DNA of 64,000 nucleotides, taken from assembly GCF_038502225.1 (NCBI RefSeq), contig NW_027195556.1:62001-126000 (forward strand), given 5' to 3'. The first letter of the stretch is position 1. Each line of letters begins with the position of its first letter. The notes under the pieces are model-generated. The model saw only the letters and a program-made list of their open reading frames with translations, had not been told where the DNA came from and searched no databases. Source of the stretch: Cherax quadricarinatus. Taxonomy: Eukaryota > Arthropoda > Malacostraca > Decapoda > Parastacidae. This document shows, in pieces, positions 17,431 through 58,716 of this stretch. Made by a program: the position numbers and the translations under genes.

Positions 17431-18188
17431 ATGGGTAACCCAAGAGGGCGGAGACCCAGGGGTCAGGAGGCCGAACCCAGGAGGGAAGAACCTGGAAGGG
17501 AAGATTGGGAGATGGAGCTCACAAAAATGGAGGAAGAGTGGGGAAGGAAGCTAGCAGACCTCGGGAAGGTAATGGAGGAGAGGATAGCTGAAGAGAGGAT
17601 GTGGGAACTACAAATCTTAGCAGCAGAAGATAAGATAAAGTGCTTAGAAGAGGAGCTAAAAAACCTGAAACAGACTAGAGACACAAATGACAGTACAGAC
17701 ATGACATCAGAAACATCTATACCAGACAGACAAGGGGGATGTAGGGATTCAGGTAAAGATGAGTACGGGAAGCCTGAAGACAATGAAGGTGACATGACAT
17801 ATACAGAGACTAACAGTGAACTACAGTGGCAGGGAAGACAGTCCACTGAGCATAGGGGCTGCAGCAAGGGCAGGAGTTGAAGGAAGGAACGTTTCGATGG
17901 AAACAGCTAAAACACCTCAGAGGATGCAAAGAGAATTACAGTGGGAGGAGGAGAGGGAGAGGTCAGTGTTTGTCTACGGGCTCCAAGAAGTCGAAGGGGA
18001 AACCTACGATGAAAGAAACCAGGGGGAGAAGAAAGCGATCGAAGGTATCATGAAAGCAATGGGTGAGGGAGACATGACACAGGTGGCAAATTTTCGGAAA
18101 ATTGGGTGGTTTGCAGGTGGAAGGAAACAGCCTGTCAAAGTAATCTTCAAAGCAGAATTAACTCGAACCAGGGCCCTGCAGGTGAAAG
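17431..18188 (+). pseudogene. CR1-like LINE copy 1, ORF1 (5' part, interrupted)
   Basis: The frame opens with ATG at 17431 and encodes a charged protein. Arg/Glu-rich start, then a probable coiled coil (about residues 30-90: WEMELTKMEEEWGRKLADL, LQILAAEDKIKCLEEEL), then the C-terminal domain RSVFVYGLQEVEGE, NFRKIGWFAGGRKQPVKVIF. The layout, a coiled coil followed by an RRM/CTD-like nucleic-acid-binding part, is that of LINE ORF1 proteins. One frameshift near 17860 joins the two halves. The gene is cut at 18188 by the LTR element and resumes at 26219. Copy 2 (30452 on) carries the same protein. Confidence 0.8.
18185..18188. repeat. Left target-site duplication (aaag)
   Basis: The aaag before the LTR is repeated at 26219-26222. 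Joining the LINE flanks with one aaag restores the reading seen in CR1 copy 2 (gagaaagcaagactgag). Confidence 0.8.
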
Positions 18189-19411
18189 TGTTGCAACCCC
18201 TGAATGGGTTACAATGATTATTATGTATATATGTAATGTATATTATCTTTTCATATAATTTTATATTGCTTATATTTGCGATAATAGCTAAATCGTAAAT
18301 GTATGACCTTATATTATTATTTGACTGTTATATTGTTATTTAGCTTATGTTGTTAGGATGTATATAAAATGTGCTCAGTTAGGCTTGATTATCAAACTAC
18401 TGTAATTATCGCTTGTCGCTCGTTATACTGCCGGCTTCTGAGCTGCAGTTGTCCACGTAGCTATCACGTGATCGAGGGGGGGGTGTCCTCACCTCGTGTG
18501 AAGTAGTCAGTCTGCTGGAGACTCGCTTGCTGGTTGGACAGATTGTCTGTCTCATTATTCTTGTTAGTTCTGTAGAACTTTGTTCACAGAACATTGTATA
18601 GACTTAGTGATTTTCGACGTTGTACTGAGGTTGTGTGTCGCTTAGACACTCTGAATATCTCAGGTCCTTAGCTATAGCTTCTGACCTAATTTTGTACTGG
18701 TTCCTGTGTATTGTCACAGTCACAGTTTTACCTATGCTGAACAAAGATTCAGTATTATGGGAGTTTTGTAACTTTAGTGGAGGATCTGCAGATGGTCCCT
18801 ACTTAGTGTTGTTATATTATTTCCCAGTTCCTGATTCTGTGTCGCAGTCGCTTGATATTACATTGCTATAGGGCTTAGCATTCTTTGTTGTTCAAGCAGA
18901 CTGTTCGGGTTGCCAGTCGGTCAAGAAGTTAGTTTATTTGAGGACTTTGTCAGTCACTTGTTTAAGTCTAATTCGAGTCTTGAGACACAGCTAACTACTT
19001 AAGAGCACTTATACGCATACACACACTTGTACATATTTGTAATATCTTATTAAATGTTAATGTACCTGACGGTACTTAAGAATTATAAATGTGATATGTG
19101 CTTTCAGCACAATAATATTGAACTCGAGAGATTGATTTTATTTTGATTGCTGTAATTAATTTACTCTGATAATATACCTCTAGACAACTTATATACTTAA
19201 TAAATTTATTAAATTTTAATTTCTCTAGTTAGTAGCCTACCAGTTGTAATCCTAAAGCACTATTGAACCATACTGAATTATAATGGATAATTGGACAAGG
19301 ATACTAACTACTTGTTACGAAAACCCAGTAACAGGCTGGATGCTAGAAGGGCAGTCCTTTCTAGTATTCACTGGAGATCTCTAAGCTTTTGGAATCGCGT
19401 TTTTTGTAACA
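18189..19411 (+). repeat. 5' LTR (973 bp shared; probably extends to 19411)
   Basis: The shared repeat begins tgttgcaacc and its identity with the 3' copy stops at 19161. However, gtaaca at 19406-19411, two bases before the primer-binding site, would give the normal LTR ends TGTT...AACA and a length of 1223 bp. On that reading the 3' copy lacks its last 250 bp. A TATA box lies at 18361-18369 and an AATAAA at 19199-19204. The two small frames inside it occur identically in both LTRs and are not supported as genes. Confidence 0.75.
18361..18369 (+). promoter_or_regulatory. LTR TATA box (tatataaaa)
   Basis: A tatataaaa motif about 170 bp into the LTR, followed by tgctcagttaggcttg. It is the only good TATA in the first half of the LTR and would drive the genomic transcript. 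The second copy is at 25418-25426. Confidence 0.6.
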
Positions 19412-19413
19412 AA

Positions 19414-19431
19414 TGGGGGCCTGTCCGGGAT
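19414..19431 (+). promoter_or_regulatory. Primer-binding site, tRNA-Pro-like
   Basis: tgggggcctgtccgggat differs at two positions from the tRNA-Pro primer-binding site of murine leukaemia virus. It follows ...gtaaca aa, the usual spacing after an LTR end in CA. The complementary 18 nt would be a tRNA 3' end terminating in CCA. Confidence 0.75.
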
Positions 19432-19697
19432 GCTCTTGATCCAAGGTGTTGGAGAAATTGTCCAGTTTGACATACTAGTACTTCTATGATCAAACACTTT
19501 GAGTATTTTCCTAATCTGAAGACTTTGAGTTTAGTCTTGTACAACATACCAGGTGGATGTATGTACCTGACTGAGTCTCTTGATCCAAGGAGATGGAAAT
19601 ACTGTTTGAGTTCTAGCTCTAAGACAACCAACACTAAAATTCCTATTAGGATTATAGTTTCCCATAATCACTCTCTCGTAGTACAATTATTTTCGTG

Positions 19698-21245
19698 ATG
19701 TATGCCAAAGTGAAACAGTTAATTGATACTCTGACTTTGTCTGAGTTAAGTACATTAAAACTTCAGACGTGTTGGCAAGTAGCCAAATATCTCGGTGTGA
19801 CGTATAACAGGAATTACACCGCTGAAACTGTCAGAGCATTAATTAAAGATATATTGTTTCCTGCTCATACAGAGATGTCTGATTATGATTCAGATTCAGA
19901 AAGCCTAGTGTCACAATTAGGAAGTATGACTCTATTTGATGAAGAAAGAGCAACTAGAGCAGAAGTGAGCCTAGTGGCTGAGCCTAGTGTAGCTCAGTTC
20001 TCGCTCACACCTTCCCGCCTCACTGACACTATAGCACAGAGTGTAGCTGGTAGTATGACACAGCCTAATACTAGTACAGTGTATACTACACCTGTATTTA
20101 CTTATCCTAGACCAGATCTAGACACTCTAGAGACGGCTGGACCAAGTGTCCGACCTAAGGACCGTCCAGACCATGTTAATTTCCCTACTCCTCCATTACC
20201 CACTGGTCCTATCTCTCAGGAACAGTTTGAGAGGTTTGAACGCCTCCTTATGTTGCAGACTGCACAAATAGAGGCACAGAGGAGATTGAACGAAGAAGAT
20301 TTCCAAAGAGAAAATGTTCGTCTGGGAAGACAACAGACTGATAGATCACAGGACACATTTAATGTGCAGAAAGCTGCATCCATGGTTCCTAAGTTTTTTG
20401 AAAGTGACTTAGACACATATTTTGATGTGTTTGAGAACCAGGCTCGTGCTATGAACTGGCCACGTAAGCACTGGGCAACATTGCTTCATACTGCTTTGAC
20501 AGGAAGAGCTCAAACTTGTACGGCTGCTTTGCCATTTGCTAAGTACATTAGTTATGACGCTGTCAAACAAACTATTCTAGAGACGTATAACTTGTTACCT
20601 GTAAGTTATCAAAGAGCCTTTCGTACGTTACAACGACGACAAGATCAAACTTGTGTAGAGTTTGCTCGTGAGAAAAAAGTTGCTTTTGAGAGATGGACTA
20701 GAGCTGCTAAATGTAACAACTATAACAGCCTTGTTCAGTTGTTACTACACGAAGAGTTTAACAACTGTATGTCTGCTGACATACAAGAATATCTGATCGA
20801 TCATACTACCTCAGATATTCTGGAAACTGCAGCATTAGCAGACAATTACGAAATTTCTCACAAACTTGTACGTACTAAAACACTCAGAAACAAGGTAACT
20901 AAAAATTGTCCTAGAAGTTGGCCACCTAAATCAGCTGCTCATTGCCGGCCTGATGTACCTGCTACTGTAACTTCTCGTACCTTTACCAGGAAAACTCACA
21001 ATCCTGAATCTGTCTCTGTGGCTAGACAGAAATCTGATATCGAGAAGAAGAAAGTTAAATGTACCTATTGTAACAGGAAAGGACATACTAGAGAGTATTG
21101 CTATAAGTTAGAAAGAGATACGAGATACAATCGTGCGGCTGGCGCCCCCACACAAGTCGTATCCTCTTCCGAGCAACAAAGACACCAAAATCCTAGCAAT
21201 ACCTCTGATCCTACTGTTTTAGATAATGTTACTCAGGATAGATGA
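19698..21245 (+). CDS. gag: Gag polyprotein of the Gmr1-type element
   Basis: A structural protein of about 515 residues that would assemble the particle and package element RNA. I choose ATG 19698; the codon before it is GTG. The N-terminal 80 residues are moderately charged. A Ser/Thr/Pro-rich linker follows (about 80-170), then a helical capsid-like region (about 210-400: FFESDLDTYFDVFENQA, HWATLLHTALTGRA, FAREKKVAFERW). One CCHC zinc knuckle at residues 455-468 (CX2CX4HX4C, CTYCNRKGHTREYC) binds RNA. A short tail ends at TGA 21243-21245, in frame with pol and followed by ctag. The frame is intact. Confidence 0.9.
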   Translation: MYAKVKQLIDTLTLSELSTLKLQTCWQVAKYLGVTYNRNYTAETVRALIKDILFPAHTEMSDYDSDSESLVSQLGSMTLFDEERATRAEVSLVAEPSVAQFSLTPSRLTDTIAQSVAGSMTQPNTSTVYTTPVFTYPRPDLDTLETAGPSVRPKDRPDHVNFPTPPLPTGPISQEQFERFERLLMLQTAQIEAQRRLNEEDFQRENVRLGRQQTDRSQDTFNVQKAASMVPKFFESDLDTYFDVFENQARAMNWPRKHWATLLHTALTGRAQTCTAALPFAKYISYDAVKQTILETYNLLPVSYQRAFRTLQRRQDQTCVEFAREKKVAFERWTRAAKCNNYNSLVQLLLHEEFNNCMSADIQEYLIDHTTSDILETAALADNYEISHKLVRTKTLRNKVTKNCPRSWPPKSAAHCRPDVPATVTSRTFTRKTHNPESVSVARQKSDIEKKKVKCTYCNRKGHTREYCYKLERDTRYNRAAGAPTQVVSSSEQQRHQNPSNTSDPTVLDNVTQDR

Positions 21246-21249
21246 CTAG
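21243..21249 (+). promoter_or_regulatory. Probable gag-pol stop-codon readthrough site (TGACTAG)
   Basis: The gag stop TGA is directly followed by CTAG, and the same frame stays open through 14 codons into the pol ATG at 21288 and on to 24635. UGA-CUA is a known strong 3' context for translational readthrough. A shared frame separated by one stop fits gammaretrovirus-style Gag-Pol expression, but this is inferred from sequence only. Confidence 0.6.
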
Positions 21250-21287
21250 CGTCAGAAAGTGTATCTGACGAAAAGATTCGTTCAGCG

Positions 21288-24200
21288 ATGAGTCCTTACT
21301 TTTCGAGAGATAAAGTAGGATTTGACGAATCACATCTAACTGAGATAATTTCTTTCAGAGACACTGGCAGTTATCTCACGTTATTAAGAGAAGATGTACT
21401 GCCCATTACTGACGATACCTATTGCAAGATAGATGTATTGTTAGAAGCCTATGGAGGGGCTGTTATAAAAGTGACTCTGCACAAAGTTTATATTGAAACA
21501 AGCTATTATACTGGTTATATTTCAGTGGGTATATCCAGTGGTGTATTTCCCATCAGGTCAGTGGACTTGTTGATAGGGAACGATATCCTTCATGCTGGTA
21601 TATGTAAAGAACCACTTGTGATTGATAATAACACTGATGATAATTATGCCATTGAAGCTTGTAGAGAGAAACCTATTTTATTTCCTCTCAGTGCAATTAC
21701 TAGAGCTATGTCAAAGATTCAACAACCATCCTTGTCTCCTGTTGAGTTAGTGGATGACAATGATTTGGGCTTGAATATGTTGTTTAGTGACGCTCTGCGC
21801 CCAGGATCATTAACACTGACTCCCCCCGGTCATCAACCTAGTCAGGACACAACTGACGTTAAATTTCTTACTCATGATGATTTAATCAAGGATCAGTTTG
21901 TTGATCAGTCACTGGAAAGACTGAGAGATATAGCAGTTACTGAGAGTGAAGCAAAGGATCTCGATAATTGTTACTATTATAGTAACGGTGTACTGATGGA
22001 GAAAAACACATGTAAGTTGTCAGCTGATAGTGTTTCTACCACAGTCAAGAATCTAGTTGTGTTACCAGTTACATTTCGTGAACAAGCCATTGATTTTGCT
22101 CACAATAGTCCCATAGGAGGACATTTGGGTGTCAAGAAGACACTCAGTAAACTGGCAAAACATTTTACTTGGCCAAAGATGAAGGAAACAGTAGCTGATC
22201 ATGTGCGACGTTGCCACGTGTGTCAAGTGACAGGCAAGCCAGCGCACACACCTCCACCTGCGCCTCTCATTCCTATCACCGTGCATGGTGAACCATTCTC
22301 ACGTCTTATTATTGATTGTGTTGGTCCTTTGCCTAGAACCAAACTAGGAAACCAATACTTATTTACTATTATGGACGCTGCAACACGCTATCCCGAAGCT
22401 ATTCCTATGAGAAAAATTAATGCTCGTGCTATTGTGAGAGCGCTGATGAAATTTTTCTCCCAGGTTGGATTGCCACGAGAGATACAATCAGATCAGGGAT
22501 CTAACTTCACTTCTAAGATCTTTCGAGAAGCATTATCCCACCTAGGAATAAAGTCTGTACTTTCAACCAGTTATCATCCACAGTCACAAGGTGCTCTAGA
22601 GAGATTTCATCAGACACTGAAGTCCATGATGAGAGCTTATTGTGAACATTTTTCTAGAGACTGGGATGAGGGTATACCTTTTCTTCTGTTCGCTATGAGA
22701 GAAAGTGAGCAAGAAAGTCTCGGATTTAGTCCGTTTGAATTAATATTCGGACACCAAGTGCGTGGTCCTCTTGCAGTGTTGAAAGACGTGTGGACAGGAA
22801 AATCAAATCCATCATTGAGTACTTCACCTTCATTAATGCAGCAACATCTGACAGCCGCTAGAGAGCTAGCTTCGAAAAACCTAGTTTCAGCCCAAGCTAG
22901 AATGAAGCAGCATTATGACAAGCGTGCTGTCTCTCGTTCTTTTAAAGCAGGAGATAAGGTGATGGCTCGGAAATTAGTACCAGGTCATGCTCTACAAGCC
23001 AGGTATGATGGTCCCCTGGAAGTAGTGAAAAAGCTTAGCGACGTAAATTATTTGGTACGTACGCCTGGGAAAAAGAAATCTAATCATGTGTACCATGTTA
23101 ACCAGCTTAAGGCATACTACGCTAGTCCTCTACCTACTACTTCTATTCTTCCTAGGACAGAGGAAGAAAACGTCAGTCTACCTGACATCTCTAGAGGTAT
23201 AGAGGTTCGTTTAGAAAATTCAGTGACTCTACAATCACTAGACGATTTTCTTAGTAACCTTGGGAGTGATAAAGCTGGTGATATTAAAAACATGATTTTG
23301 CATTTCCCTGAATTGTTCGGTGATGTTCCTAAACGTTGTACTCTGGGTGTACATGACGTTGATGTACAGGGAGCATCACCCATTAAGCAATCACCATATA
23401 GGATGAGTCCAACAAAGCATAAAGCATTGAGAGAAGAGGTTGATTTTCTGTTAGCTCACGGACTTATTGAGCGCAGTAAAAGTCCATGGGCATCTCCCTG
23501 TATTTTAGTGCCTAAACCTGACGGTAGTTTCAGGATGTGCACTGATTACAGGAAAGTGAACTCTGTCACCTTGCCTGATGGTTATCCTCTACCTCGCATT
23601 GACGACCTTATTGACCGTGTGTCAGGAGCCCAGTTTGTCAGCCGTTTAGATCTCTTACGAGGCTATTATCAAGTCCCGCTTACTGAACGTGCTCAAGAAA
23701 TATCTGCTTTTACTGTTCAAGATGGATTGTTTAACTACCTCGTCACCCCCTTCGGCCTATGTAACGCGGCTTCTTCATTCCAACGTATAATGAACGAGTT
23801 GACCCACAACTTAGAAGGAGTAGAAGCCTACCTTGACGACTTAGTGGTGTACAGTGACGAGTGGGAACAGCACTTGACGCGTCTCAGAGCATTGTTTGAG
23901 AGACTGGCGCACTACAACTTCACTGTTAACTTAGCTAAATGTAGTTTTGGTCAAGCCAAGATTACCTATCTAGGCTTTTGTATCGGCCAAGGTGAGGTTG
24001 CTCCTATTGAGGCTAAGGTTCGTGCAATTTCTGAATTTCCAGTGCCACAGGATAGGAAAGGAGTACAGAGATTCCTGGGTATGGCAGGATATTATCGCAG
24101 GTTCTGTCCAAACTTTTCTCAGATTGCAGCTCCACTTACTGAGCTTACTAGTAGCAAAGTTCAGTTCACCTGGACTAGAGATTGTTCAGACTCGTTCAAA

Positions 24201-24635
24201 AGGTTGAAACGTTTGCTATCCTCTGCTCCTGTGTTGAAAAGTCCTAATTTCAATCTTCCCTTCTTTTTACATATAGATGCGAGTGGCTATGCAGTGGGTG
24301 CTGTGCTGCTCCAACAGTCAACATCCACTGATATTCTCCATCCTATATGTTACTATTCATCTAAGCTTAAACGACACCAGAAAAATTATGCCACTATTGA
24401 GAAAGAAGCTCTAGCTCTTGTGGTGTCATTGGAACATTTTGACGTGTATTTGGGCACTTCCCCATTTAAAATTAACGTTTTTTCTGACCACAATCCACTC
24501 ACTTATATTAATACCATGAAAAGTAAAAATGCTAGGATCATGAGGTGGGCCCTCAGAATCCAACCTTACTCTATTAGTATAAAACACATAAGTGGTCATT
24601 GTAATGTAATTGCTGACGCTCTGTCTCGTCCTTAA
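21288..24635 (+). CDS. pol: Pol polyprotein: protease, integrase, RT, RNase H
   Basis: An open frame of 1115 codons from ATG 21288, also open upstream to the gag stop. An aspartic protease DTGS lies at residues 25-28. Integrase follows: a zinc-binding HNSPIGGH...CHVC (about 270-315), then a catalytic DD35E triad at D343 (LIIDCVGP), D402 (SDQGSNF) and E438 (GALERFH). A GPF-like or chromodomain-like segment (FKAGDKVMARKLV, ARYDGPLEVV) closes it near 600. RT follows, with SPWASPCILVPKPDGSFRMC and YLDDLVVYSD (848-851). RNase H has HIDASG (D997), EKEALAL, SDHNPL and SGHCNVIADALSR. All catalytic residues checked are present. Ty3/gypsy pols normally place integrase last; here it precedes RT. No frameshift is seen. 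Confidence 0.95.
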   Translation: MSPYFSRDKVGFDESHLTEIISFRDTGSYLTLLREDVLPITDDTYCKIDVLLEAYGGAVIKVTLHKVYIETSYYTGYISVGISSGVFPIRSVDLLIGNDILHAGICKEPLVIDNNTDDNYAIEACREKPILFPLSAITRAMSKIQQPSLSPVELVDDNDLGLNMLFSDALRPGSLTLTPPGHQPSQDTTDVKFLTHDDLIKDQFVDQSLERLRDIAVTESEAKDLDNCYYYSNGVLMEKNTCKLSADSVSTTVKNLVVLPVTFREQAIDFAHNSPIGGHLGVKKTLSKLAKHFTWPKMKETVADHVRRCHVCQVTGKPAHTPPPAPLIPITVHGEPFSRLIIDCVGPLPRTKLGNQYLFTIMDAATRYPEAIPMRKINARAIVRALMKFFSQVGLPREIQSDQGSNFTSKIFREALSHLGIKSVLSTSYHPQSQGALERFHQTLKSMMRAYCEHFSRDWDEGIPFLLFAMRESEQESLGFSPFELIFGHQVRGPLAVLKDVWTGKSNPSLSTSPSLMQQHLTAARELASKNLVSAQARMKQHYDKRAVSRSFKAGDKVMARKLVPGHALQARYDGPLEVVKKLSDVNYLVRTPGKKKSNHVYHVNQLKAYYASPLPTTSILPRTEEENVSLPDISRGIEVRLENSVTLQSLDDFLSNLGSDKAGDIKNMILHFPELFGDVPKRCTLGVHDVDVQGASPIKQSPYRMSPTKHKALREEVDFLLAHGLIERSKSPWASPCILVPKPDGSFRMCTDYRKVNSVTLPDGYPLPRIDDLIDRVSGAQFVSRLDLLRGYYQVPLTERAQEISAFTVQDGLFNYLVTPFGLCNAASSFQRIMNELTHNLEGVEAYLDDLVVYSDEWEQHLTRLRALFERLAHYNFTVNLAKCSFGQAKITYLGFCIGQGEVAPIEAKVRAISEFPVPQDRKGVQRFLGMAGYYRRFCPNFSQIAAPLTELTSSKVQFTWTRDCSDSFKRLKRLLSSAPVLKSPNFNLPFFLHIDASGYAVGAVLLQQSTSTDILHPICYYSSKLKRHQKNYATIEKEALALVVSLEHFDVYLGTSPFKINVFSDHNPLTYINTMKSKNARIMRWALRIQPYSISIKHISGHCNVIADALSRP

Positions 24636-25245
24636 TAATTATCAGTTACATTAAATTAACGTAATTTTATGCCCAAATACGTTTTGTTACTTGCTATGTC
24701 AAATTCAGTAAAGTAACTTAATCCCTCCAGCCCATATTAACTATATATACTCATGTCATGTCTAATTATTATATTTATATATTCACAGTAATGTTGTGTG
24801 AGGAGGAGACAAGCTGAGTGTTGAGTGAGTAGTGTGGTGTGGGAGATGGTACTGCGCGTGACGCAACACTGTCCTGCCGCAGACCCCCCCCTCACTACAC
24901 ACCTTAAGCTGTTTCATACTCAGATGTTCATACTGCCTAGCATTCCACAACCACTACTTAAGAGTGGAATGCAGTCTCCTCTACTATGATCGAGCCTCAA
25001 CGTGCCCTCCTTGTCAGCGCTATCCTGTCTCTACATTGATGTACATAACCACGAGTATACAGAGATACGATACTGTGTACTGCCCTAGTTAGGGGCATAT
25101 CCTAGTGACGGACGCTGTGAAATTGTAGAAGTGCTTGGCACAAGAGACTCGGATTAATATTTTATTGATATGAGTAACCAGAAATAATGTGAAAGACATT
25201 TAATGCAACTCCAAGTGCGACCCTCTGTCGTGTTGGGGGGGGGGG
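24636..25245 (+). other. 3' untranslated region and polypurine tract
   Basis: About 610 bp between the pol stop and the 3' LTR with no long frame. It ends in gttggggggggggg (25232-25245), a G-only polypurine run abutting the LTR start, expected to prime plus-strand DNA. Confidence 0.75.
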
Positions 25246-26218
25246 TGTTGCAACCCCTGAATGGGTTACAATGATTATTATGTATATATGTAATGTATAT
25301 TATCTTTTCATATAATTTTATATTGCTTATATTTGCGATAATAGCTAAATCGTAAATGTATGACCTTATATTATTATTTGACTGTTATATTGTTATTTAG
25401 CTTATGTTGTTAGGATGTATATAAAATGTGCTCAGTTAGGCTTGATTATCAAACTACTGTAATTATCGCTTGTCGCTCGTTATACTGCCGGCTTCTGAGC
25501 TGCAGTTGTCCACGTAGCTATCACGTGATCGAGGGGGGGGTGTCCTCACCTCGTGTGAAGTAGTCAGTCTGCTGGAGACTCGCTTGCTGGTTGGACAGAT
25601 TGTCTGTCTCATTATTCTTGTTAGTTCTGTAGAACTTTGTTCACAGAACATTGTATAGACTTAGTGATTTTCGACGTTGTACTGAGGTTGTGTGTCGCTT
25701 AGACACTCTGAATATCTCAGGTCCTTAGCTATAGCTTCTGACCTAATTTTGTACTGGTTCCTGTGTATTGTCACAGTCACAGTTTTACCTATGCTGAACA
25801 AAGATTCAGTATTATGGGAGTTTTGTAACTTTAGTGGAGGATCTGCAGATGGTCCCTACTTAGTGTTGTTATATTATTTCCCAGTTCCTGATTCTGTGTC
25901 GCAGTCGCTTGATATTACATTGCTATAGGGCTTAGCATTCTTTGTTGTTCAAGCAGACTGTTCGGGTTGCCAGTCGGTCAAGAAGTTAGTTTATTTGAGG
26001 ACTTTGTCAGTCACTTGTTTAAGTCTAATTCGAGTCTTGAGACACAGCTAACTACTTAAGAGCACTTATACGCATACACACACTTGTACATATTTGTAAT
26101 ATCTTATTAAATGTTAATGTACCTGACGGTACTTAAGAATTATAAATGTGATATGTGCTTTCAGCACAATAATATTGAACTCGAGAGATTGATTTTATTT
26201 TGATTGCTGTAATTAATT
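25246..26218 (+). repeat. 3' LTR (973 bp)
   Basis: By my reading this is identical to 18189-19161, including an eight-G run in the middle. It ends aattaatt directly before aaag and LINE sequence. If the true LTR ends at gtaaca (see the 5' LTR), this copy has lost its final 250 bp, including the AATAAA seen at 19199-19204. Confidence 0.88.
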
Positions 26219-26222
26219 AAAG
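26219..26222. repeat. Right target-site duplication (aaag)
   Basis: Partner of 18185-18188. It directly follows the last base of the 3' repeat. Confidence 0.75.
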
Positions 26223-26806
26223 CATGACTGAGGGACAAACCAGAGTACCAGAGAGTGTACCTAGATCGCGACAGAACACAGCAGGAAAGGACGATACTGA
26301 GAGAGAGAGGGTACAAAGACGAAAGGAGGAACGGGATGCATCGATGAAGACGAGCAGAACCCAACCACAACAACCCCAAAACAACTGAATAATCTCAACC
26401 AAAACCCACACACTGTTTCCTCTGCCCCCACATCACAAACCCCACCCCTACAGCAGCCCCCTATGGGCACCCTGCCCCACCCCCCACCACAAACTCCACC
26501 CACATCGTGACAACCCCAGTGCAGCTGAACAAGCTCAACCAAAACCCACACACTGTTCCCTCTGCCCCCACATCACAAACCCCACTGCTACAGCAGCTCC
26601 CTATAGGCACTCTGCCCTCATCCCCCATCACAAACCCCACCCACACCACAAACCCCATAGGCCCCCCCAGGGCTTCCGCTCCCCAACCCCATTATTCTCC
26701 CAGGTTAACCGTGCTAGACAAGAAGCTGAAGGTGTGATACACGAACGCAGATGGAATAACAAATAAATACGAGGAGTGGCATGAAAGAATCAGCGAGAAG
26801 TCCCCA

Positions 26807-27368
26807 GACATCATAGCAGTCACAGAAACGAAACTCACTGAGACAATAACAGATGCAGTCTTCCCACCGGAATATCAGATCCTGAGGAAAGATAGAAGGA
26901 GCAGAGGGGGAGGAGAGGTTGCACTGCTCATAAAAAGCCGATGGAGTTTTGAGGAAATGGAATGCATGGACGTGATTGGATGAAGGGACTACATAGTAGG
27001 TACAATTCAATCTTGGGAACATAAGGTAGTCATTGAGTGATGTATAACCCACCATAGAACTGCAGGAGGCCAAGAGAGGAATATGATGACATCATAGCAG
27101 TCACAGAAACGAAACTCACTGAGACAATAACAGATGCAGTCTTCCCACCGGGATATCAGATCCTGAGGAAAGTTAGAAGGAGCAGAGGCGGAGGAGGGGT
27201 TGCACTGCTCATAAAAAGCCGATGGAGTTTTGAGGAAATGGAATGCATGGACGAGATTGGAGAAAGGGACTACATAGTAGGTACAGTTCAATCTGGGGAA
27301 CATAAGGTAGTCATTGCAGTGTTGTATAACCCACCGCAGAACTACAGGAGGCCAAGAGAGGAATATGA
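26807..27368. repeat. 281-bp tandem duplication inside the LINE endonuclease
   Basis: The segment starting gacatcatagcagtc at 26807 recurs at 27088, so 26807-27087 and 27088-27368 are direct copies with a few differences. 281 is not a multiple of three, so the duplication alone breaks ORF2. Copies 2 and 3 of the family have one copy. Confidence 0.9.
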
Positions 27369-29517
27369 TGAGAGCAACAGAGCGATGGTGGACACACTGG
27401 CTGAGGTGGCATGAAGAGCTCAATCGTGCAGAGCAAAGTTACTGGTTATGGGTGATTTCAACCACAGGGAGATCGATTGGGAAAACCTGGAGCCTCATGG
27501 GGGCCCCGAAACATGGAGAGACAAGATGATGGATGTGGTACTGGAAAACCTCATGCATCAACACAACAGGGACACTACCAGAGAGAGAAAGGGGAGAATG
27601 AACCAAGACTGGACCTTGTGTTCATCCTGAGTACCTCAGACATTGATGACATCACATATGAGAGGCCCCTCGGAGCTAGTGACCATGTAGTCCTGAGTTT
27701 TGATTACATAGTAGAGTTACAAGTGGAGAGGGTAACAGGAGTCGAAGGGGAAAAGACAAACTATAAAAGGGGGGACTACACAGGCATGAGTAACTTCCTG
27801 TGGGAGGTGCAGTGGGACTGAGAAATGGTAGGAAAGTCAGTAAATGAAATGATGGAATATGTAACAACGAAATGCAAGGAGTCAGAGGAAAGGTTTGTTC
27901 CCAAGGGCAACAGAAACAATGGGAAAACCAAAGCGAGTCCTTGGTTTACCCGAAGGTGCAGGGAGGCAAAAACTAAGTGCATTAGAGAATGGAAGAGGTA
28001 TGAAGGCAAAGGACCCAGGAAAACAAGGAGATCAGTCGAAGAGCCAGATACGAATATGCACAGATAAGGAGGGAGGCCCAGCGACAGTACGACAATGACA
28101 TAGCATCGAAAGTCAAGTCTGACCCGAAACTGCTGTTTAGCCACATTAGGAGGAAGACAACAGTCAAAGACCAGGTGATCAGGCTGAGAAAAGAAGGTGG
28201 GGAACTCACAAGAAACAATCAAGAGGTATGCGAGGAGCTCAACATGAGATTTAATGAAGTATTCACAGTGGAGACAAGAAGGACTCTGGGAAGACAGGAC
28301 AGAGGGGGACACCAACAGGGAATAGCCCAACAAGTGCTGGATGATATGCACACAACTGAGGAGGAGGTGAAGAAGCTGCTAAGTGACCTTGATACCTCAA
28401 AGGCAATGGAACCTGACAACATCTCCCAGTGGGTCCTCAGGAAGGGAGCAGATATACTGTGTGTGCCATTAACCACAATCTTCAACACATCCCATGAAAT
28501 TGGGCAACTACCTGAGGTATGGAAGACCGCAAATGTAGTTCCCATTTTTAAAAAAAGAGACAGTAAAGAGGCACTAAATTACAGACCAGTATCACTGATG
28601 TATATAGTATGCAAAGTCATGGAGAAGTTTATCAGGAGGAGAGTGGTGGAGCACCTGGAACGGAACAAGATTATAAACGACAACCAGCACGGATTCATGG
28701 AAGGCAAATCCTGTGTCACAAACCTTCTGGAGTTTTATGACAAAGTCACAGAAGTAAGACATGAGAGAGAGGGGTGGGTTGATTGCATTTTCTTGGACTG
28801 CAAGAAGGCCTTCGACACAGTTCCTCACAAGAGATTAGTGCAGAAACTAGAGGATCAGGCGCATATAACAGGAAGGGCACTGCAATGGATCACAGAATAC
28901 ATGACAGGGAGGCAACAACGAGTCATGGTACGGGATGAGGTATCACAGTGGGCGCCGGTGACGAGCAGGGTCCCACAGGGGTCAGTCCTAGGACCAGTGC
29001 TATTTTTGGTATATGTGAATGACATGATGGAAGGGATAGACTCAGAGGTGTGCCTGTTCGCAGATGATGTGTAGTTAATGAGGAGAATTAAATCAGATGA
29101 GGATAAGGCAGGACGTCAAAGAGACCTGGACAGGCTGGACAAGTGGTCCAGTTACTGGCTTCTTGAATTTAACCCTGCCAAATGCAAAGTAATGAAGATC
29201 GGAGAAGGGCAAAGAAGACCGCAGACAGAGTATAGGCTAGGTGGCCAAAGACTGCAAGCCTCGCTCAAGGAGAAAGCTCTTGGGGTGACCATAACACCGA
29301 GCATGTCTAAAGAGGCACACAACCAGATAACTGCTGCAGCATATGGGCGCCTGGCAAACATGAGAATAGCGTTCCGATACCTTAGAAAGGACTCGTTCAA
29401 GACACTGTACACTGTGTACATCAGGCCCATACTGGAGTATGCAGCACTAGTTTGGAACTCACACCTGGTCAAGCACGTCAAGAAATTAGAGAAAGGTTTG
29501 CAACAAGGCTAGTTCCG

Positions 29518-29715
29518 ACAGATTGTAATAAAGTTGGTAGAATTACCGACAATATGTAAAGTAAAAGGACACAAGTGCAACTAATGTGACATTTTATTGT
29601 GGCAACGTTTCGCTCTCCAGGAGCTTTATCAAGCCATGGCTTGATAAAGCTCCTGGAGAGCGAGACGTTGCCACAATAAAATGTCACATTAGTTGCACTT
29701 GTGTCCTTTTACTTT
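29518..29715. mobile_element. Palindromic hammerhead-bearing insertion with 15-bp target duplication
   Basis: A 198-bp insertion into CR1 copy 1, flanked by acaaggctagttccg at 29503-29517 and 29716-29730. CR1 copies without it read straight through. 29556-29636 and 29637-29717 are inverted arms of about 81 nt with one mismatch (gaaac against gagac). A short single-copy lead (29518-29555) includes ttaccgaca, shared with the insertion at 47180. This resembles inverted terminal parts left by Penelope-like or retrozyme insertions. Confidence 0.85.
29606..29634 (-). ncRNA. Hammerhead-like motif in the palindrome
   Basis: On the minus strand, cttgataaagctcctgg then agagcgaaac: a hairpin (gctc/gagc) followed by GAAAC and gttgcc, with a ggc/gcc pairing able to form stem I. 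The first core box reads cttgataa instead of CUGANGA, so catalytic ability is doubtful. The mirror copy is at 29639-29668, with gagac instead of gaaac. Confidence 0.5.
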
Positions 29716-30150
29716 ACAAGGCTAGTTCCGGAGCTCAGGGGGTATGTCCAATAAGAAAAGTTGAGGGAAATCGGACTGACGACATTGGAGGACAGGAGGG
29801 TCAGGGGAGACATGATAACGAAATACAAAATACTGCGTGGAATAGATAAGGTGGGCAGAGACAGATTCTTCCAGAGAGGGGACACAGAAACAAGGGGTCA
29901 CAATTGGAAGCTGAAGACTCAGACGAGTCAGAGGGATGTTAGGAAGTATTTCTTCAGTCATAGAGTCGTCAGGAAGTGAAATAGCCTAACAAGTGATGTA
30001 GTGGAGGCAGGAACCATACATAGCTTTAAGACGAGGTATGACAAAGCTCATGAAGCAGAGAGAGATAGAGGACCTAGTAGCGATCAGTGAAGAGGCGGGG
30101 CGAGGAACTGAGTCTCGACCCCTGCAACCACAATTAGGTGAGTACATACA

Positions 30151-30451: not shown

Positions 30452-31382
30452 ACTTGGTAAGATAATGGAGGAGCGGATAGCTGAAGAGTCCAGGAAATGG
30501 GAGCTACAGGTCTTAGCAGCAGAAGCTAGGATACAGTGCTTAGAAGAGAAACTGCAAAACCTGAAACAGATTAGAGAGACAAATGACAATTCAGATGCGA
30601 CATCAGGAAATTAAATGTCAGGCACAGACAAGGGGGCGATAAGCAACAAAGGAGACAAGCCGTACGCGAAGGTCCTATCAGACCCACGTGGGGCCAGGGA
30701 AAAGACGAGGAGCGCACTAAGATCAAATGACAGGTCCGAAGACAATGAGGGTATGCTACATGCAGAGACTCTAACAGCCAACTGCAGTAGCAAGGGACAG
30801 CTGGTCATGAAAGACAGTTCACTGAGAATAGATGTTTCAGATAGGACAGGGACTGAAGGTAAGAGCATGTCAATGGAAGGAAATAAAATGCCTCAGAGGA
30901 AGCAGATGGAGACTCAGTGGGAGGAGGAAAGGGGGAGGTCAGTTTTTGTGTATGGGCTCCAAGAAGCCAAGGGGGACAACTTCGAAGAAATAAAACAGGA
31001 GGAGAAAAAAATTGTTGAAGGCCTCATGAAAACAATAGGTGAGGGCGATATGACCCAGGTGACAAATTTTCAGAGAATTGGGTGGTTTGTGCGTGGAAGG
31101 ATACGGCCTGTCAAAGTAATTTTCAAGGAAGAATCAGTTTGAACAAGGATTCTGCAAGAGAAAGCAAGACTGAGGGACAAACAGGGGTACCAGAGAGTAT
31201 ACCTCGACTGCGACAGATCACAAGAAGAAAGGACTACACTGAAAGAGATGGTACAGAGACGCAAGGAGGAACGAGAGGCAATGATGAAGATGAGCAGGAC
31301 CCAGACACAGGAGGAAGGGCAAACACACCCCACAGAATCTCCCACCAAAAGACTCCAACCGCGACATTCCCAACGAAACTGA
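30452..31382 (+). pseudogene. CR1-like LINE copy 2, ORF1
   Basis: Homologous to 17431-18188 but starting within the coiled coil (IMEERIAEESRKWELQVL). Landmarks: CLEEKLQNLKQIRET, then [34 protein letters not shown], and [16 protein letters not shown] to a stop at 31380-31382. In-frame stops at about 30612 (taa) and 31140 (tga) break it. The C-terminal half is the nucleic-acid-binding domain typical of LINE ORF1 proteins. It overlaps the start of ORF2. Confidence 0.8.
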
Positions 31383-34300
31383 GCAACCTATACTACAACC
31401 CACTCACTGTTCCCTCTGCCACCAACCTCACAAACCTCACACCAACAGCTGTCCCTTATGGGCATTCTGACCCCACCCCTACCATCACAAACCCCACCTA
31501 CACCACAGCCCCATATAGGCCCCCACCAAGGCTCTCGCTCCCCCAACCCCAATATTCTTGCAGGACAACAATGATAGAAAAGAAACTGAAAGTTTGGTAC
31601 AGAAACGCGGATGGAATGACGAATAAACATGAGGAGTGGAACGAAAGAATCAGCGAGAAATCCCAAGACATCATAGCAGTCACAGAAACAAAACTCGCTG
31701 AGACAATAACAGACACAATCTTCCCAACGGGATATCAGATCCTGAGGAAAGATAGAAGGAGTAGAGGGGGAGGAGGGGTTGCACTGCTCATAAAACACCG
31801 ATGGGGATTTGAGGAAATGGAAGGCATGGACATGATTGGAGAAAGAGACTACATTGTAGGTACAATTCAGCCCGGAGAACATAAAGTAGTCAGTGGAGTG
31901 ATGTATAACCCACCACAGAACTACAGGAGGCCAAGAGAGGAGTACGAAGAAAACAACAGGGTGATGGTGGACACACTGGCTGAGGTGGCAAGAAGAGCTC
32001 ACTCGAGCAGAGCAAAGTTACTGGTAATGGGCGATTTCAACCACAGGGAGATCGACTGGGAAAACCTGGAGCCACATGGGGGTCCTGAAACATGGAGAGC
32101 CAAGATGATGGATGTGGTACTTGAAAACCTCATGCATCAACATGTCAGGGACACTACCAGAGAGAGTGGGGAGGATGAGCCAGCAAGACTGGATCTTGTG
32201 TTCACCCTGAGCAGTTCAGATATTGAGGACATCACTTACGAGAGGCCCCTTGGAGCTAGCGATCATGTGGTTCTGAGTTTTGATTATATAGTAGAGTTAC
32301 AAGTGGAGAAGGTAACAGGAATTGAAGGGGACAGGCCAAACTATAAAAGGGGGGACTACACAGGTATGAGAAACTTCCTGCAGGAGGTTCAGTGGGACAG
32401 AGAAATGGTAGGAAAATCAGTAAACGAGATGATGGAATATGTGGCAACAAAGTGCAAGGAGGCAGAGGAAAGGTTTGTTCCCAAGGGAAACAGAAATAAT
32501 AGGAAGACCAAAACGAGTCCTTGGTTTACCCGAAGGTGTAGGGAGGCGAAAAATAAGTGCAACAAGGAATGGAAAATGTACAGGAGGCATAGGACCCAGG
32601 AAAACAAGGAGATTAGTAGAAGAGCCAGAAACGAGTACGCACAGATAAGGAGGGAGGCCCAGCAACAGTATGAAAACGACATAGCATCGAAAGTCAAATC
32701 TGACCCGAAACTGCTGTATAGCCACATTAGGAGGAAGACAACAGTCAAGGACCAGGTGATAAGGCTGAGGAAAGAAGGTGGAGAACTCACAAGAAACGAT
32801 CAAGAGGTATGTGAGGAGCTCAACATGAGATTTAAGGAAGTATTTACAGTGGAGACAGGAAGGCCTCTGGGGGGACAGACCAGATGGGGACACCAGCAAG
32901 GAATACACCAACAAGTGTTGGACGACATACATTCAGATGAGGAGGAGGTGAAGAAACTGCTAAGGGACATCGATACCTCAAAGGCAATGGGACCGGACAA
33001 CATCTCCCCGTGGGTCCTTAGAGAGGGAGCAGATATGCTGTGCGTGCCACTTACCACAATCTTCAACACGTCCCTGGAAACTGGGCAACTACCTGAGGTA
33101 TGGAAGACGGCAAATGTAGTTCCCATTTTTAAAAAAGGAGACAGAAAAGAGGCACTAAACTATAGACCTGTGTCATTGACGTGTATAGTATGTAAAGTTA
33201 TGGAGAAGATTATCAGGAGGAGAGTGGTGGAGCACCTGGAACAGAACAAGAGTATAAATGCCAACCAGCACGGATTCATGGAAGGCAAATCCTGTGTCAC
33301 AAACCTTCTGGAGTTTTATGATAAAATAGCAGAAGTAACACACGAAAGAGAGGGGTGGGTTGATTGCATATTCTTGGACTGCAAGAAGGCCTTCGACACA
33401 GTTCCTCACAAGAGATTAGTGCAGAAACTAGAGCATCAGGCGCATATAACAGGAATGGCACTGCAATGGATCAGAGAATACCTGACAGGGAGGCAACAAC
33501 GAGTCATGGTACGTAATGATGTATCACAGTGGGCACCTGTGACGAGCGGGGTCCCACAGGGGTCGGTCCTAGGACCAGTGCTATTTTTGGTATATGTGAA
33601 CGACATGATGGAAGGGTTAGACTCAGAAGTGTCCCTGTTTGCAGATGATGTGAAGTTAATGACGAGAATTAAATCAGATTAGGACCAGGCAGGACTTCAA
33701 AGAGACCAGGACAGACTGGACACCTGGTCCAGCAAATGGTTTCTCGAATTTAATCCTGCCAAATGCAAAGTCATGAAGATAGGGGAAGGGCACAGAAGAC
33801 CTCAGACAAAGTATAGGCTAGGTGACCAAAGACTGCAGACCTCACTCATGGAGAAAGATCTTGGGGTGAGTATAACACCAAGCATGTCTCCGGAAGCACA
33901 CATCAACCAGATAACTGCTGCAGCATATGGGCGCCTGGCAAACCTGAGAACAGCATTCCGATACCTTAGTAAGGAATCGTTCAAGACACTGTACACCGTG
34001 TATGTCAGGCCCATACTGGAGTATGCAGCACCTGTTTGAAACCCGAACTTGATAAAGCACGTCAAGAAACTAGAGAAAGTACAAAGGTTCGCGACAAGGT
34101 TAGTTCCAGAGCTAAGGGGAATGTCCTATGAAGAAAGGTTAAGGGAAATCGGTCTGACGACACTGGAGGACAGGAGGGTCAGGGGAGACATGATAACGAC
34201 ATATAAAATACTGCGGGGAATAGACAAGGTGGACAAAGACATAGAGATGTCAGGCAGTGGAATAGCCTAGAAAATGACGTAGTGGAGGCAAGAACCATAC

Positions 34301-38875: not shown

Positions 38876-40998
38876 TCAAGTATTAAAAACCATTTGTCTC
38901 CATTCACTCCTATCAAACACGCTCACGCATGCCTGCTGGAAGTACAAGCCCCTCGCACACAAAACCTCCTTTACCCCCTCCCTCCAACCCTTCCTAGGCC
39001 GACCCCTACCCCGCCTTCCTTCCACTACAGACTGATACACTCTTGAAGTTATTCTGTTTCGCTCCATTCTCTCTACATGTCCGAACCACCTCAACAACCC
39101 TTCCTCAGCCCTCTGGACAACAGTTTTGGTAATCCCGCACCTCCTCCTAACTTCCAAACTACGAATTCTCTGCATTATATTCACACCACACATTGCCCTC
39201 AGACATGACATCTCCACTGCCTCCAGCCTTCTCCTCGCTGCAACATTCATCACCCATGCTTCACACCCATATAAGAGCGTTGGTAAAACTATACTCTCAT
39301 ACATTCCCCTCTTTGCCTCCAAGGACAAAGTTCTCTGTCTCCACAGACTCCTAAGTGCACCACTCACTCTTTTTCCCTCATCAATTCTATGATTCACCTC
39401 ATCTTTCATAGACCCATCCGCTGACACGTCCACTCCCAAATATCTGAATACGTTCACCTCCTCCATACTCTCTCCCTCCAATCTGATATTCAATCTTTCA
39501 TCACCTAATCTTTTTGTTATCCTCATAACCTTACTCTTTCCTGTATTCACCTTTAATTTTCTTCTTTTGCACACCCTACCAAATTCATCCACCAATCTCT
39601 GCAGCTTCTCTTCAGAATCTCCCAAGAGCACAGTGTCATCAGCAAAGAGCAGCTGTGACAACTCCCACCCTGTGTGTGATTCTTTATCTTTTAACTCCAC
39701 GCCTCTTGCCAAGACCCTCGCATTTACTTCTCTTACAACCCCATCTATAAATATATTAAACAACCACGGTGACATCACACATCCTTGTCTAAGGCCTACT
39801 TTTACTGGGAAAAAATTTCCCTCTTTTCTACATACTCTAACTTGAGCCTCACTATCCTCGTAAAAACTCTTCACTGCTTTCAGTAACCTACCTCCTACAC
39901 CATACACTTGCAACATCTGCCACATTGCCCCCCTATCCACCCTGTCATACGCCTTTTCCAAATCCATAAATGCCACAAAGACCTCTTTAGCCTTATCTAA
40001 ATACTGTTCACTTATATGTTTCACTGTAAACACCTGGTCCACACACCCCCTACCTTTCCTAAAGCCTCCTTGTTCATCTGCTATCCTATTCTCCGTCTTA
40101 CTCTTAATTCTTTCAATTATAACTCTACCATACACTTTACCAGGTACACTCAACAGACTTATCCCCCTATAATTTTTGCACTCTCTTTTATCCCCTTTGC
40201 CTTTATACAAAGGAACTATGCATGCTCTCTGCCAATCCCTAGGTACCTTACCCTCTTTCATACATTTATTAAATAATTGCACCAACCACTCCAAAACTAT
40301 ATCCCCACCTGCTTTTAACATTTCTATCTTTATCCCATCAATCCCGGCTGCCTTACCCCCTTTCATTTTACCTACTGCCTCACGAACTTCCCCCACACTC
40401 ACAACTGGCTCTTCCTCACTCCTACAAGATGTTATTCCTCCTTGCCCTATACACGAAATCACAGCTTCCCTATCTTCATCAACATTTAACAATTCCTCAA
40501 AATATTCCCTCCATCTTCCCAATACCTCTAACTCTCCATTTAATAACTCTCCTCTCCTATTTTTAACTGACAAATCCATTTGTTCTCTAGGCTTCCTTAA
40601 CTTGTTAATCTCACTCCAAAACTTTTTCTTATTTTCAACAAAATTTGTTGATAACAGCTCACCCACTCTCTCATTTGCTCTCTTTTTACATTGCTTCACC
40701 ACTCTCTTAACCTCTCTCTTTTTCTCCATATACTCTTCCCTCCTTGCATCACTTCTACTTTGTAAAAACTTCTCATATACTAACTTTTTCTCCCTTACTA
40801 CTCTCTTTACATCATCATTCCACCAATCGCTCCTCTTCCCTCCTGCACCCACTTTCCTGTAACCACAAACTTCTGCTGAACACTCTAACACTACATTTTT
40901 AAACCTACCCCATTCCTCTTCGACCCCATTGCCTATACTCTCATTAGCCCATCTATCCTCCAATAGCTGTTTATATCTTACCCTAACTGCCTCCTCTT
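38876..40998 (-). CDS. Reverse transcriptase part of RTE-like LINE copy C
   Basis: An intact RT frame of about 700 codons (first Met at 40963, open to the inversion junction). In order: a basic N-terminal linker (SDWWNDDVKRVVREKK), fingers and palm (KAAGIDGIKIEML, CIVPLYKGKGDKRECKNYRG, ISLLSVPGKVYGRVI), RGCVDQVFTVKHI, catalytic A box VAFMDLEKAYDRVDR, LRQGCVMSPWLFNIFIDG, catalytic box LLFADDTVLLGDSEE, LKVNTGKSKVM, and a C-terminal LRWFGHVERMERNRI ... GRRGRGRPRKGW. All palm aspartates are present. It lacks its endonuclease in cis because of the inversion, so it cannot be an autonomous element as it stands. Confidence 0.9.
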
Positions 40999-48989: not shown

Positions 48990-49495
<506 letters not shown>

Positions 49496-49515
49496 TTAAA
49501 CTGATAGATTATAGA

Positions 49516-56469: not shown

Positions 56470-58716
56470 TTCAAAAATTGGCTGGGCAAATATTTTTGTC
56501 ATGTATCGTCATCAAGCTATGTATGGTTCCAGCCTCCACTACATCACTTGCTTGGCTATTCCACTTCCTGGCGACTCTATGACTGATGAAATACTTCCTA
56601 ACATCCCTGTGACTCGTCTGAGTCTTCAGCTTCCAATTGTGACCCCTTGTTTCTGTGTCCCCTCTTTGGAACATTCTGTCTCTGTCTACCTTATCTATTC
56701 CACGCGGTATTTTGTATGTCGTTATCATGTCTCCCCTGACCCTCCTGTCCTCCAGTGTTGTCAGACCGATTTCCCTTAACCTTTCTTCGTAGGACATTTC
56801 CCATAGCTCTGGAACTAGCCTTGTTGCAAACCTTTCCAAACTGGTGCTGCGTACTCCAGTATGGGCCTTTCGATTCCTTACTGAGGTACCGGAACGCTAT
56901 TCTCAGGTTTCCCAAGCGCCCATATGCCGCAGCAGTTATCTGGTTAATGTGTGCTTCTGGCGACGTACTCGGTATTATACTCACCCTTAGATCTTTCTCC
57001 TTGAGTGAGGTTTGCAGTCTTTGGCCGCCTAGCCTATACTCTGTCTGCGGTCTTCTTTGCCGTATTCCGATCTTCATGACTTTGCATTTGGCGGAGTTAA
57101 ATTCTAGGAGCCAGTTGCTGGACCACGCGGCCAGCCTGTCCAGGTCTCTTTCTAGACCTGTCAGATCCGCATCTGATTTAATTCTCCTCATTAACTTCAC
57201 ATCATCTGCAAAGAGGGACACTTCTGAGTCTATCGCTTCCGTCATATCATTCACATATACCAAGAATAGTACTGGTCCCAGGACTGACCCCTGTGGGACC
57301 CAGCTCGTCACTCGTGCCCACTGTGATACCTCATCACGGACCACGACTCGCTGTTGCCTCCCTGTTAGGTGTTCTCTGATCCATTTCAGTGCCCTACCTG
57401 TTATACGTGCCTGATCCTCTAGCTTCTGTACTAATTTCTTGTGAGGAACTGTGTCGAAGGCCTTCTTGCAGTCCAAGAAAATGTAGTCAACCCACCTCTC
57501 CCTCTCATGTCTTCAGTTACCTTGTCATAAAACTCTAGTAGGTTTGTGACACAGGATTTGCCTTCCATGAACCCGTGCTGACTGTCGCTTATAATCTTGT
57601 TCCGCTCCAGGTGCTCCACCACTCTCCACCTGATAATCTTCTCCATGACTTTGCATACTATACACGACAGTGACACTGGTCTGTAGTTTAGTGCCTCTTT
57701 TCTGTCTCCTTTTTTAAAAATAGGAACTGCATTTGCCATCTTCCATACCTCAGGTAGTTTCCCAGTTTCAAGGGATGTGTTGAAGATTGTGGTTAGTGGC
57801 ACACACAATGTCTCTGCTCCTGCTCTAAGGACCCACGGATAGATGCTCTCCGATCCCACCGCCTTTGAGGTATCAAGGTCACTTAGGAGCTTCTTCACTT
57901 TCTCCCGGGTTGTGTGCATTTCATCCAACGTTTGTTTGTATAACCCTTGTTGGTGTACGCCACTGTTTTGTCTTGTCAGTGTCCCTTCAGCCTCCACTGT
58001 AAATACTTCCTGAAATCTCATATTGAGCTCCTCACATACTTCTTGGTCATTTCTTGTGAGCTCCCCACCTTCTTTCCACATCCTGATTACCTGGTCCTTG
58101 ACTGTTGTCTTCCTCCTGATATGTCTGTAAAGCAATTTCGGGTCAGACTTGACTTTCGATGCTATGTCGTTTTCGTACTGCCGCTGGGCCTCCCTCCTTA
58201 TCTCTGCATACTCGTTTCTGGCTCGTCGATTAATGTCTTTATTTTCCTGAGTCCTTTGCCTTCTCCACTTTTTCCATTCTCTATCGCACTTAGTTTTTGC
58301 CTCCCTACACCTTCGCGTAAACCAAGGGCTCCTTCTGGTTTTCCCATTATTTCTGTTACTCTTATGAACAAACCTTTCCTCTGCGTCATTGCAATGTGTT
58401 GTTACGTATTCCATCATTTCGTTTACTGACTTTCCAACTCTCTCTCCCACTGAACCTACTGCAGAAAGGTCCTCATACCTGTGTAGTCCCCCCTTTTATG
58501 TTTTGGCTTTTCCCTTTCTACTCCTGTTACCCTCTCCACTTGTAGCTCTACGATTTATTCAAAGCTCAGAACCAAGTGGTCACTAGCTCCCAGGGATCTT
58601 TCATATGTGATGTCCTCGATGTCTGAGCTACTCAGGGTGAACACAGGGTTCAGTCTTGCTGGTTCATCCTCCCCTCTCTCTGGTAGTGTCCCTAACATGT
58701 TGGTGCATGAGGTTTT
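56470..58716 (-). pseudogene. CR1-like LINE copy 3 (minus)
   Basis: The same family as copies 1 and 2. From the 5' side: endonuclease end ([33 protein letters not shown], 58700-58560), linker [16 protein letters not shown] with [79 protein letters not shown] and [10 protein letters not shown], then the thumb and C terminus to 56470 (RFATRLVPEL, LTTLEDRRVRGDM, RKYFISHRVARKWN). A deletion near 56840 (SKESKGPYWST) removes the segment before RFATR, and a frameshift lies near 57470. 5'-truncated next to a (GT)n tract. Confidence 0.87.

Follow-up and report, generated by a model that had tools for sequence, protein, structure and literature searches.

A young Gmr1-type LTR retrotransposon in the redclaw crayfish whose gag and pol are parted by a UGA-CUAG junction, a candidate site of readthrough

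The element Gmr1 of Gadus morhua was reportedly described by Goodwin and Poulter in 2002. For the clade named after it, the available text of one report gives the order protease (PR), integrase (IN), reverse transcriptase (RT) and RNase H (RH) (PMC2582038), and the accessible parts of two others link a SCAN-like gag to Gmr1-like elements (PMC4592553, PMC4131045). In the portion of Piednoel et al. 2013 at hand, four decapod Gmr1-clade elements are presented as the first in protostomes (PMC3587641), and a 2021 report, as far as its available text goes, places LGF3 of the annelid Lamellibrachia in the Gmr1 family by RT, RH and IN trees (PMC8220671). Here we analyzed a stretch of 64,000 nt from the redclaw crayfish Cherax quadricarinatus (‘the window’), in which an initial annotation, made from the letters alone, had seen a Gmr1-type lineage in a decapod-like host. 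The element is very probably a young Gmr1-type Ty3/gypsy long terminal repeat (LTR) retrotransposon that appears to make its Gag-Pol by readthrough and owes its integrase-first order to inheritance from one old animal lineage. Its predicted Gmr1-type membership is well supported by the domain order, a SCAN-type gag and the agreement between the RT-RNase H and IN trees, and the decapod host by a C. quadricarinatus protein in NCBI (P0001), which reaches 100% identity over 700 aa in the genome of the window. Both the integrase-first order and Gmr1 elements in decapod hosts are already known; the surprise at meeting outside deuterostomes a type first reported from them is thus smaller than the annotation had it, since the accessible part of PMC3587641 shows decapod members to have been published in 2013.

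As the annotation had described, one open pol frame holds protease, DD35E integrase, YLDD reverse transcriptase and RNase H in this order, which we recovered by motifs, Pfam and a protease model. Within pol, RDTG occupies residues 24–27 and the H-H-C-C finger residues 272–312, followed by the integrase triad D343-D402-E438 with 35 residues separating the last two, by YLDD (848–851) and by the RNase H. Pfam returned Integrase_H2C2, rve, RVT_1 and RT_RNaseH in order, all above cut-off, and no copia RT model was present among the matches up to E 1. The likeness of RT and RNase H to Ty3/gypsy was borne out as well, the top match of this part in the PDB being the Ty3 RT/RNase H (E 6.1e-90). For the protease there was no Pfam match, and a PDB profile search gave one chance-level match only (E 0.96). 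In the structure model the block-mean predicted local distance difference test (pLDDT) lay between 83 and 97 across the first 100 residues, mostly about 90. Foldseek matched the model to retropepsins, the HIV-1 and HTLV-1 proteases included, with a probability of 1.00 (best E 9.1e-05; template modelling score 0.45 for the query and 0.62 for the target). Judged by this model, the predicted domain before the integrase is an aspartic protease. Between 24636 and 25245 we observed no frame of at least 80 aa (ATG, GTG or TTG start) that could be an env.

Copies were searched in the 3.95-Gb C. quadricarinatus assembly that contains the window. The pol frame was exactly 1,129 codons long in 46 of the 64 matches listed, shorter in 13 (877 to 1,109 codons) and longer in five (1,476 to 7,540 codons), the last possibly reflecting runs of N. 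With more than 1,000 copies in the genome, a misassembly is an unlikely source of the unusual domain order.

The bounds given by the annotation, 18189 and 26218, do coincide with the outer ends of repeats, but the 5' LTR is 1,223 bp long and ends at 19411, while the 3' LTR is shortened; of the description ‘near-intact’ the open gag and pol stand and the whole 3' LTR does not. The direct repeats at 18189–19161 and 25246–26218 differ at none of 973 positions. We set the 5' LTR at 1,223 bp because all 40 genomic LTR matches listed (40 scored of 3,524 candidates, the window's own included) span query positions 1–1223 or 1–1224. An LTR of 973 bp was dropped: the primer site at 19414 lies 253 bp past the end of the shared repeat, and the LTRs of other copies are longer than this as well. 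The primer site differs at 2 of 18 positions from the complement of an animal tRNA-Pro 3' end; it is the sole match in the window with at most three mismatches, where 0.01 would be expected. In eight other elements we compared the LTR pairs (nine comparisons, one using a third LTR at the same locus). These LTRs read TGTTGCAACC...TTTTGTAACA and measured 1,219–1,226 bp, the 5' LTRs being followed by AA and a nearly identical primer site. The pairs differed by 0, 0, 0, 1, 2, 3, 4 and 7 substitutions; since the eight were picked among the best matches to the window, they lean young. By these values and the identical repeats of the window copy, the element is young. At one locus (G000:C95:12646189-12656869) a full-length LTR pair is accompanied, 1.2 kb away, by an additional LTR whose flanks are the same, either as a tandem duplication or as two haplotypes side by side.

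The insertion disrupts a long interspersed nuclear element (LINE; 17431–18188 and 26219–29074), of which a sister copy at 30615–33682 shows the uninterrupted target site at about 31160. On the LINE side of the insertion, a 281-bp stretch is tandemly duplicated (26807–27371). The flanks of the window copy read GAAAG on the 5' side and AAAGC on the 3' side, whereas seven of the eight other elements have target duplications of 5 bp, one of which lies within a GTG repeat, and the eighth has 4 bp. The simplest account would be a single 251-bp deletion that took the end of the 3' LTR together with the first base of the duplication. It is possible, though not likely, that the short 3' LTR goes back instead to reverse transcription begun inside U5, or to a cDNA end trimmed before integration; the duplication beside it is exactly 4 bp long, as in that one full-length element. 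We considered such mispriming and judged a plain deletion simpler because the other copies show 5-bp duplications, and a single loss covering the LTR end and one base of GAAAG explains the short LTR and the 4-bp duplication together. The short end also lacks the terminal CA seen in full LTRs.

Gag and pol are in phase and parted by one in-frame UGA, which is followed by CUAG and a hairpin. UGA-CUAG promotes readthrough in four human genes, according to the available text of PMC4132726; with the adjoining hairpin it forms a known readthrough context, and we infer that Gag-Pol may be produced in this way. When an 88-nt stretch across the junction was folded, it reached a z of -2.74, with 1 of 200 shuffles folding equally well. 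Among the 6,962 stop triplets examined on both strands of the window, 48 have such a stem directly after them, and of the six occurrences of TGACTAG on both strands only the one at the junction does. About 1,300 genomic copies share the UGA-CUAG junction. The pattern TGACTAG-N21-AAAAGAT was found 1,344 times in the genome compared to 25 times for its reversed control, at least two of the listed places being clearly unrelated to the element, and a 20-base junction pattern with at most two mismatches 1,572 times compared to 82. Leaving the stop codon free between exact flanks, we observed TGA in 99 of the 100 genomic copies listed and a sense codon in one. Junction-spanning loci that had been found without any junction pattern (31, including the window's own copy) carry TGACTAG throughout and the hairpin letters of the window in 30 cases, with a loop change in the remaining one. 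In 60 fetched copies, 30 of which were chosen by a pattern fixing the 5' arm of the hairpin, 55 have these letters, three have loop changes and two stem changes. In 25 of the 60, no further stop interrupts either side of the UGA, whether over gag (480 codons or more, or as far as the locus reaches) or over pol (as far as the locus reaches, roughly its first half).

From these data we lean towards the view that one Cherax Gmr1 lineage sets its Gag to Gag-Pol ratio by programmed UGA-CUAG readthrough with a stimulatory hairpin, while a second family in the same genome has the two fused, so that the clade would have switched strategy and both forms amplify in one host. Several points weigh against it. 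A further stop lies on at least one side in 35 of the 60 fetched copies, and in 30 of the 60 the 5' arm was preset by the search itself. Clear compensatory changes in the hairpin were not seen, the few changes being, by eye, single or wobble, and the commonest of them resemble CpG loss. Because the copies are near-identical kin, their agreement at the UGA is evidence that the stop was present in amplifying copies, but not by itself that it was selected. What may be new is the splitting of gag and pol by a readthrough-type junction that the copies share. Among the titles and abstract openings listed in a literature search, which covered subscription journals thinly and is no proof of absence, we found no Gmr1 element described with a UGA separating its gag from its pol.

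Two other explanations of the junction have to be weighed. In the first, which we regard as rather unlikely, a formerly fused gag-pol acquired the UGA by nonsense mutation, and the amplified copies depend for their mobility, as passengers, on the enzymes of other copies. It fits the fused state of most relatives: in 108 of the 120 integrase-first relatives listed, a gag match lies within the same protein, with no stop at the site of the junction. In the second Cherax Gmr1 family, which a Penaeus query brought up, 29 of the 49 matches listed have frames of 1,495–1,568 codons, 25 of these 29 without internal stop, and one stretch is open from zinc knuckle through protease. In the one copy of this family that was read for it (L177), the protease motif is RDG instead of RDTG. 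Against the explanation, the UGA is carried by those roughly 1,300 copies, pol stays open at its full 1,129 codons in the majority of listed matches, young as these copies are, and the stop is no arbitrary one but a readthrough-prone UGA-CUAG with an adjoining hairpin, the sole such site in 64 kb. Somewhat less probable again is that ribosomes reach pol in another way than by readthrough, re-initiating at an AUG 14 codons past the UGA or translating a spliced RNA. An AUG does stand at 21288, and for Tca2 of Candida the accessible part of PMC2194720 states that the sequence around the gag UGA alone did not direct readthrough in yeast; however, the weakly conserved short stretch before the AUG resembles, by eye, the same place in fused relatives.

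Programmed readthrough would fit into the following life cycle, of which most steps are predicted from the anatomy of the element. The LTR promoter would give rise to the RNA, and tRNA-Pro would prime its reverse transcription. Most ribosomes would terminate normally at the UGA and yield Gag, and a minority would read through UGA-CUAG, aided by the hairpin, to yield a Gag-Pol with its enzymes in the order protease, integrase, RT, RNase H. The DD35E integrase would then insert the cDNA with a 5-bp target duplication. In the case of the window copy the insertion into the LINE is visible in the sequence, and the loss of the 251 bp (3' LTR end and one duplication base) would have followed. The order itself would be an inheritance from one old animal lineage and not the product of rearrangement or recent transfer.

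For this last point we investigated the relatives of the element. A protein search with the whole pol let 2,828 of 7,975 scored candidates pass, and in the best 120, which we examined, integrase precedes RT without exception: 118 have the order protease-integrase-RT-RNase H, one lacks the protease and one is partial. A search with RT-RNase H only, designed as a test for a chimera, passed 5,950 of 7,971 scored candidates; 118 of the best 120 are again integrase-first. The two lists have 55 entries in common; of the 65 that appeared only in the second, 63 share the order and two are charophyte proteins. A search seeded with Ty3 listed 118 elements with RT-RNase H-integrase and two without detected integrase. 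In trees of RT-RNase H and of IN with 47 rows each, hand-chosen from 306 sequences, the integrase-first rows fall on one side, with a value of 100 each in the Shimodaira–Hasegawa-like approximate likelihood ratio test (SH-aLRT). After adding two canonical Cherax elements (RT-RNase H-integrase) and one Gmr1 element of the second family, the same separation was obtained with 31 rows (SH-aLRT 100 for RT-RNase H and 99 for IN; 100/100 combined). Placed separately, as the annotation had proposed, the two parts thus join the same side and not different clades. In a 35-row tree without the second Cherax family, the window element and P0002, the nearest row outside Cherax, are sister to the rest (94/87).

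Hosts named among the matches comprise sponge, coral, bivalves, sea cucumbers, sea urchins, cyprinid fish and, as the annotation had suggested looking for, other crustaceans (Penaeus indicus, P. monodon and Oratosquilla). Of the three origins left open there, namely ancient presence, loss or transfer, ancient presence appears to fit best because integrase-first relatives range from sponge to fish and include several separate crustacean lineages; horizontal transfer, by the same comparison, is probably not needed to explain the crayfish element. Some points weigh against the placement. The 31-row tree with the second Cherax family does not resolve the basal branching of the integrase-first clade, and the program warned that long branches come together at the root of this tree. 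The canonical rows are fungal, plant and unnamed apart from the two of Cherax, and the clade name Gmr1 rests on domain order, gag type and relatives that are unnamed or named by species; the three protein searches listed neither Gmr1 nor Mag, Mdg1 or Osvaldo by name. The approximately unbiased test disfavoured placing the crustacean members of the integrase-first elements in a clade of their own (p 0.0165 and 0.0177); few rows in this test had a named host, and the second Cherax family had yet to be included.

Viral contigs yielded no confirmed relative, and none of them matched the U5-primer-site junction exactly. When genome contigs were scanned, only L001 and L002 among the best 80 of 218 relatives match along pol (residues 3–1114), the other 78 matching within residues 265–484 alone. 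Both are contigs of a Candidatus Heimdallarchaeota metagenome-assembled genome (MAG; B3_Heim) and hold a Gmr1-type pol, which in L001 shares its frame with a gag-like part and in L002 is cut at the contig start; animal DNA was probably assigned to an archaeal bin here. Likewise, two Gmr1-type polyproteins named from Candidatus Thiodiazotropha MAGs (P0029, P0101) probably represent host DNA in symbiont bins.

It is highly improbable that the crayfish acquired a Gmr1 element from a deuterostome by recent horizontal transfer. Although the Gmr1 group was, going by a cited title, first described from deuterostomes, the window lineage does not branch with the deuterostome rows but at the base of the integrase-first clade or close to it, its nearest row outside Cherax (P0002) is only 58% identical over pol, and penaeids, a mantis shrimp and another Cherax family also carry the clade. 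That the locus holds a rearrangement or chimera, in which the integrase of an ordinary Ty3/gypsy element was moved or replaced, has the unusual order as its sole support and is more improbable still, because RT-RNase H and integrase, tested apart, both join integrase-first elements, the nearest relatives by RT-RNase H alone being of this order too, and because most listed copies in the same genome have the same pol frame.

The coordinates of the element are collected in Table 1. Elsewhere in the window, a palindrome with abutting 82-nt arms at 99% (29555–29718) may be an assembly fold-back or a hairpin insertion, and three regions (38876–40996, 49453–52447 and 56691–58495) hold more non-LTR retrotransposon frames, whose scanned parts match RT or endonuclease models.

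Table 1. Parts of the Gmr1-type element and its insertion site, in positions of the window
Feature	Position	Strand	Basis
5' target site duplication (GAAAG)	18184..18188		sequence; uninterrupted sister LINE copy; 5-bp duplications in 7/8 other elements
5' LTR, 1,223 bp, TGTTGC...GTAACA	18189..19411	+	genomic LTR matches; identical ends in 8/8 elements with fetched LTR pairs
Primer binding site, tRNA-Pro-like	19414..19431	+	complementarity to tRNA-Pro 3' end
gag, 515 codons and UGA	19698..21245	+	open frame
SCAN-like capsid domain	20607..20858	+	PF02023, 29.1 bits, cut-off 27
Zinc knuckle CX2CX4HX4C	21060..21101	+	sequence
gag UGA stop, then CUAG	21243..21249	+	sequence; shared by about 1,300 copies in the genome
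pol frame, 1,129 codons, in phase with gag	21246..24635	+	open frame
Perfect 7-bp hairpin, 7-nt loop, directly 3' of UGA-CUAG	21250..21270	+	fold; kept in fetched copies
Aspartic protease, predicted (RDTGS ... LLIGND)	21315..21587	+	structure model, retropepsin matches
Integrase: H2C2 finger, DD35E core, C-terminal p58-type domain	22035..23123	+	Pfam, motifs
Reverse transcriptase (YLDD)	23355..24002	+	Pfam, motifs, PDB match
RNase H	24165..24632	+	Pfam, PDB match
11-G run directly 5' of 3' LTR, presumed polypurine tract	25235..25245	+	sequence; G run there in 8/8 other elements
3' LTR, 973 bp, without final 250 bp	25246..26218	+	repeat comparison, genomic LTR copies
Target duplication, 3' side (AAAG)	26219..26222		sequence; sister LINE site

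Taken together, our findings support an old, animal-wide origin of the integrase-first order and offer a candidate arthropod instance of UGA-CUAG recoding. With a UGA-split and a fused gag-pol, the crayfish genome holds a natural pair that could serve as a system for the balance of Gag and Gag-Pol. With regard to the junction, a comparable described case is Tca2, for which the available text of PMC2194720 likewise gives a UGA between gag and pol and a potential RNA structure 3' of it. Tca2 is, however, a Candida element whose junction sequence by itself failed in yeast, as mentioned above, and its structure is a potential pseudoknot, whereas the Cherax element has a simple hairpin beside CUAG. 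With the Gmr1 clade as portrayed in the accessible parts of the sources cited at the outset, it has the PR-IN-RT-RH order and the SCAN-like gag in common; the UGA-CUAG between gag and pol may set it apart. The tetraodontiform elements Gmr1–Gmr4, in the available portion of PMC11117352, are of Gmr type with young copies like the Cherax element, but have a single gag-pol protein of 1506–1634 aa and LTRs of 337–518 bp. Lamellibrachia LGF3 is, by the accessible text of PMC8220671, a protostome Gmr1 element as well, although from an annelid host. Clade and host order are both common to the Cherax element and GyRex4, Gychoro2, GyMaja1 and GyLiva4, as given in the available part of PMC3587641. There, GyRex4 (RT/RH) and GyRex5 (IN) are non-overlapping fragments that only possibly belong to one element, whereas the Cherax locus presents the integrase-first order of a decapod Ty3/gypsy element in one piece.

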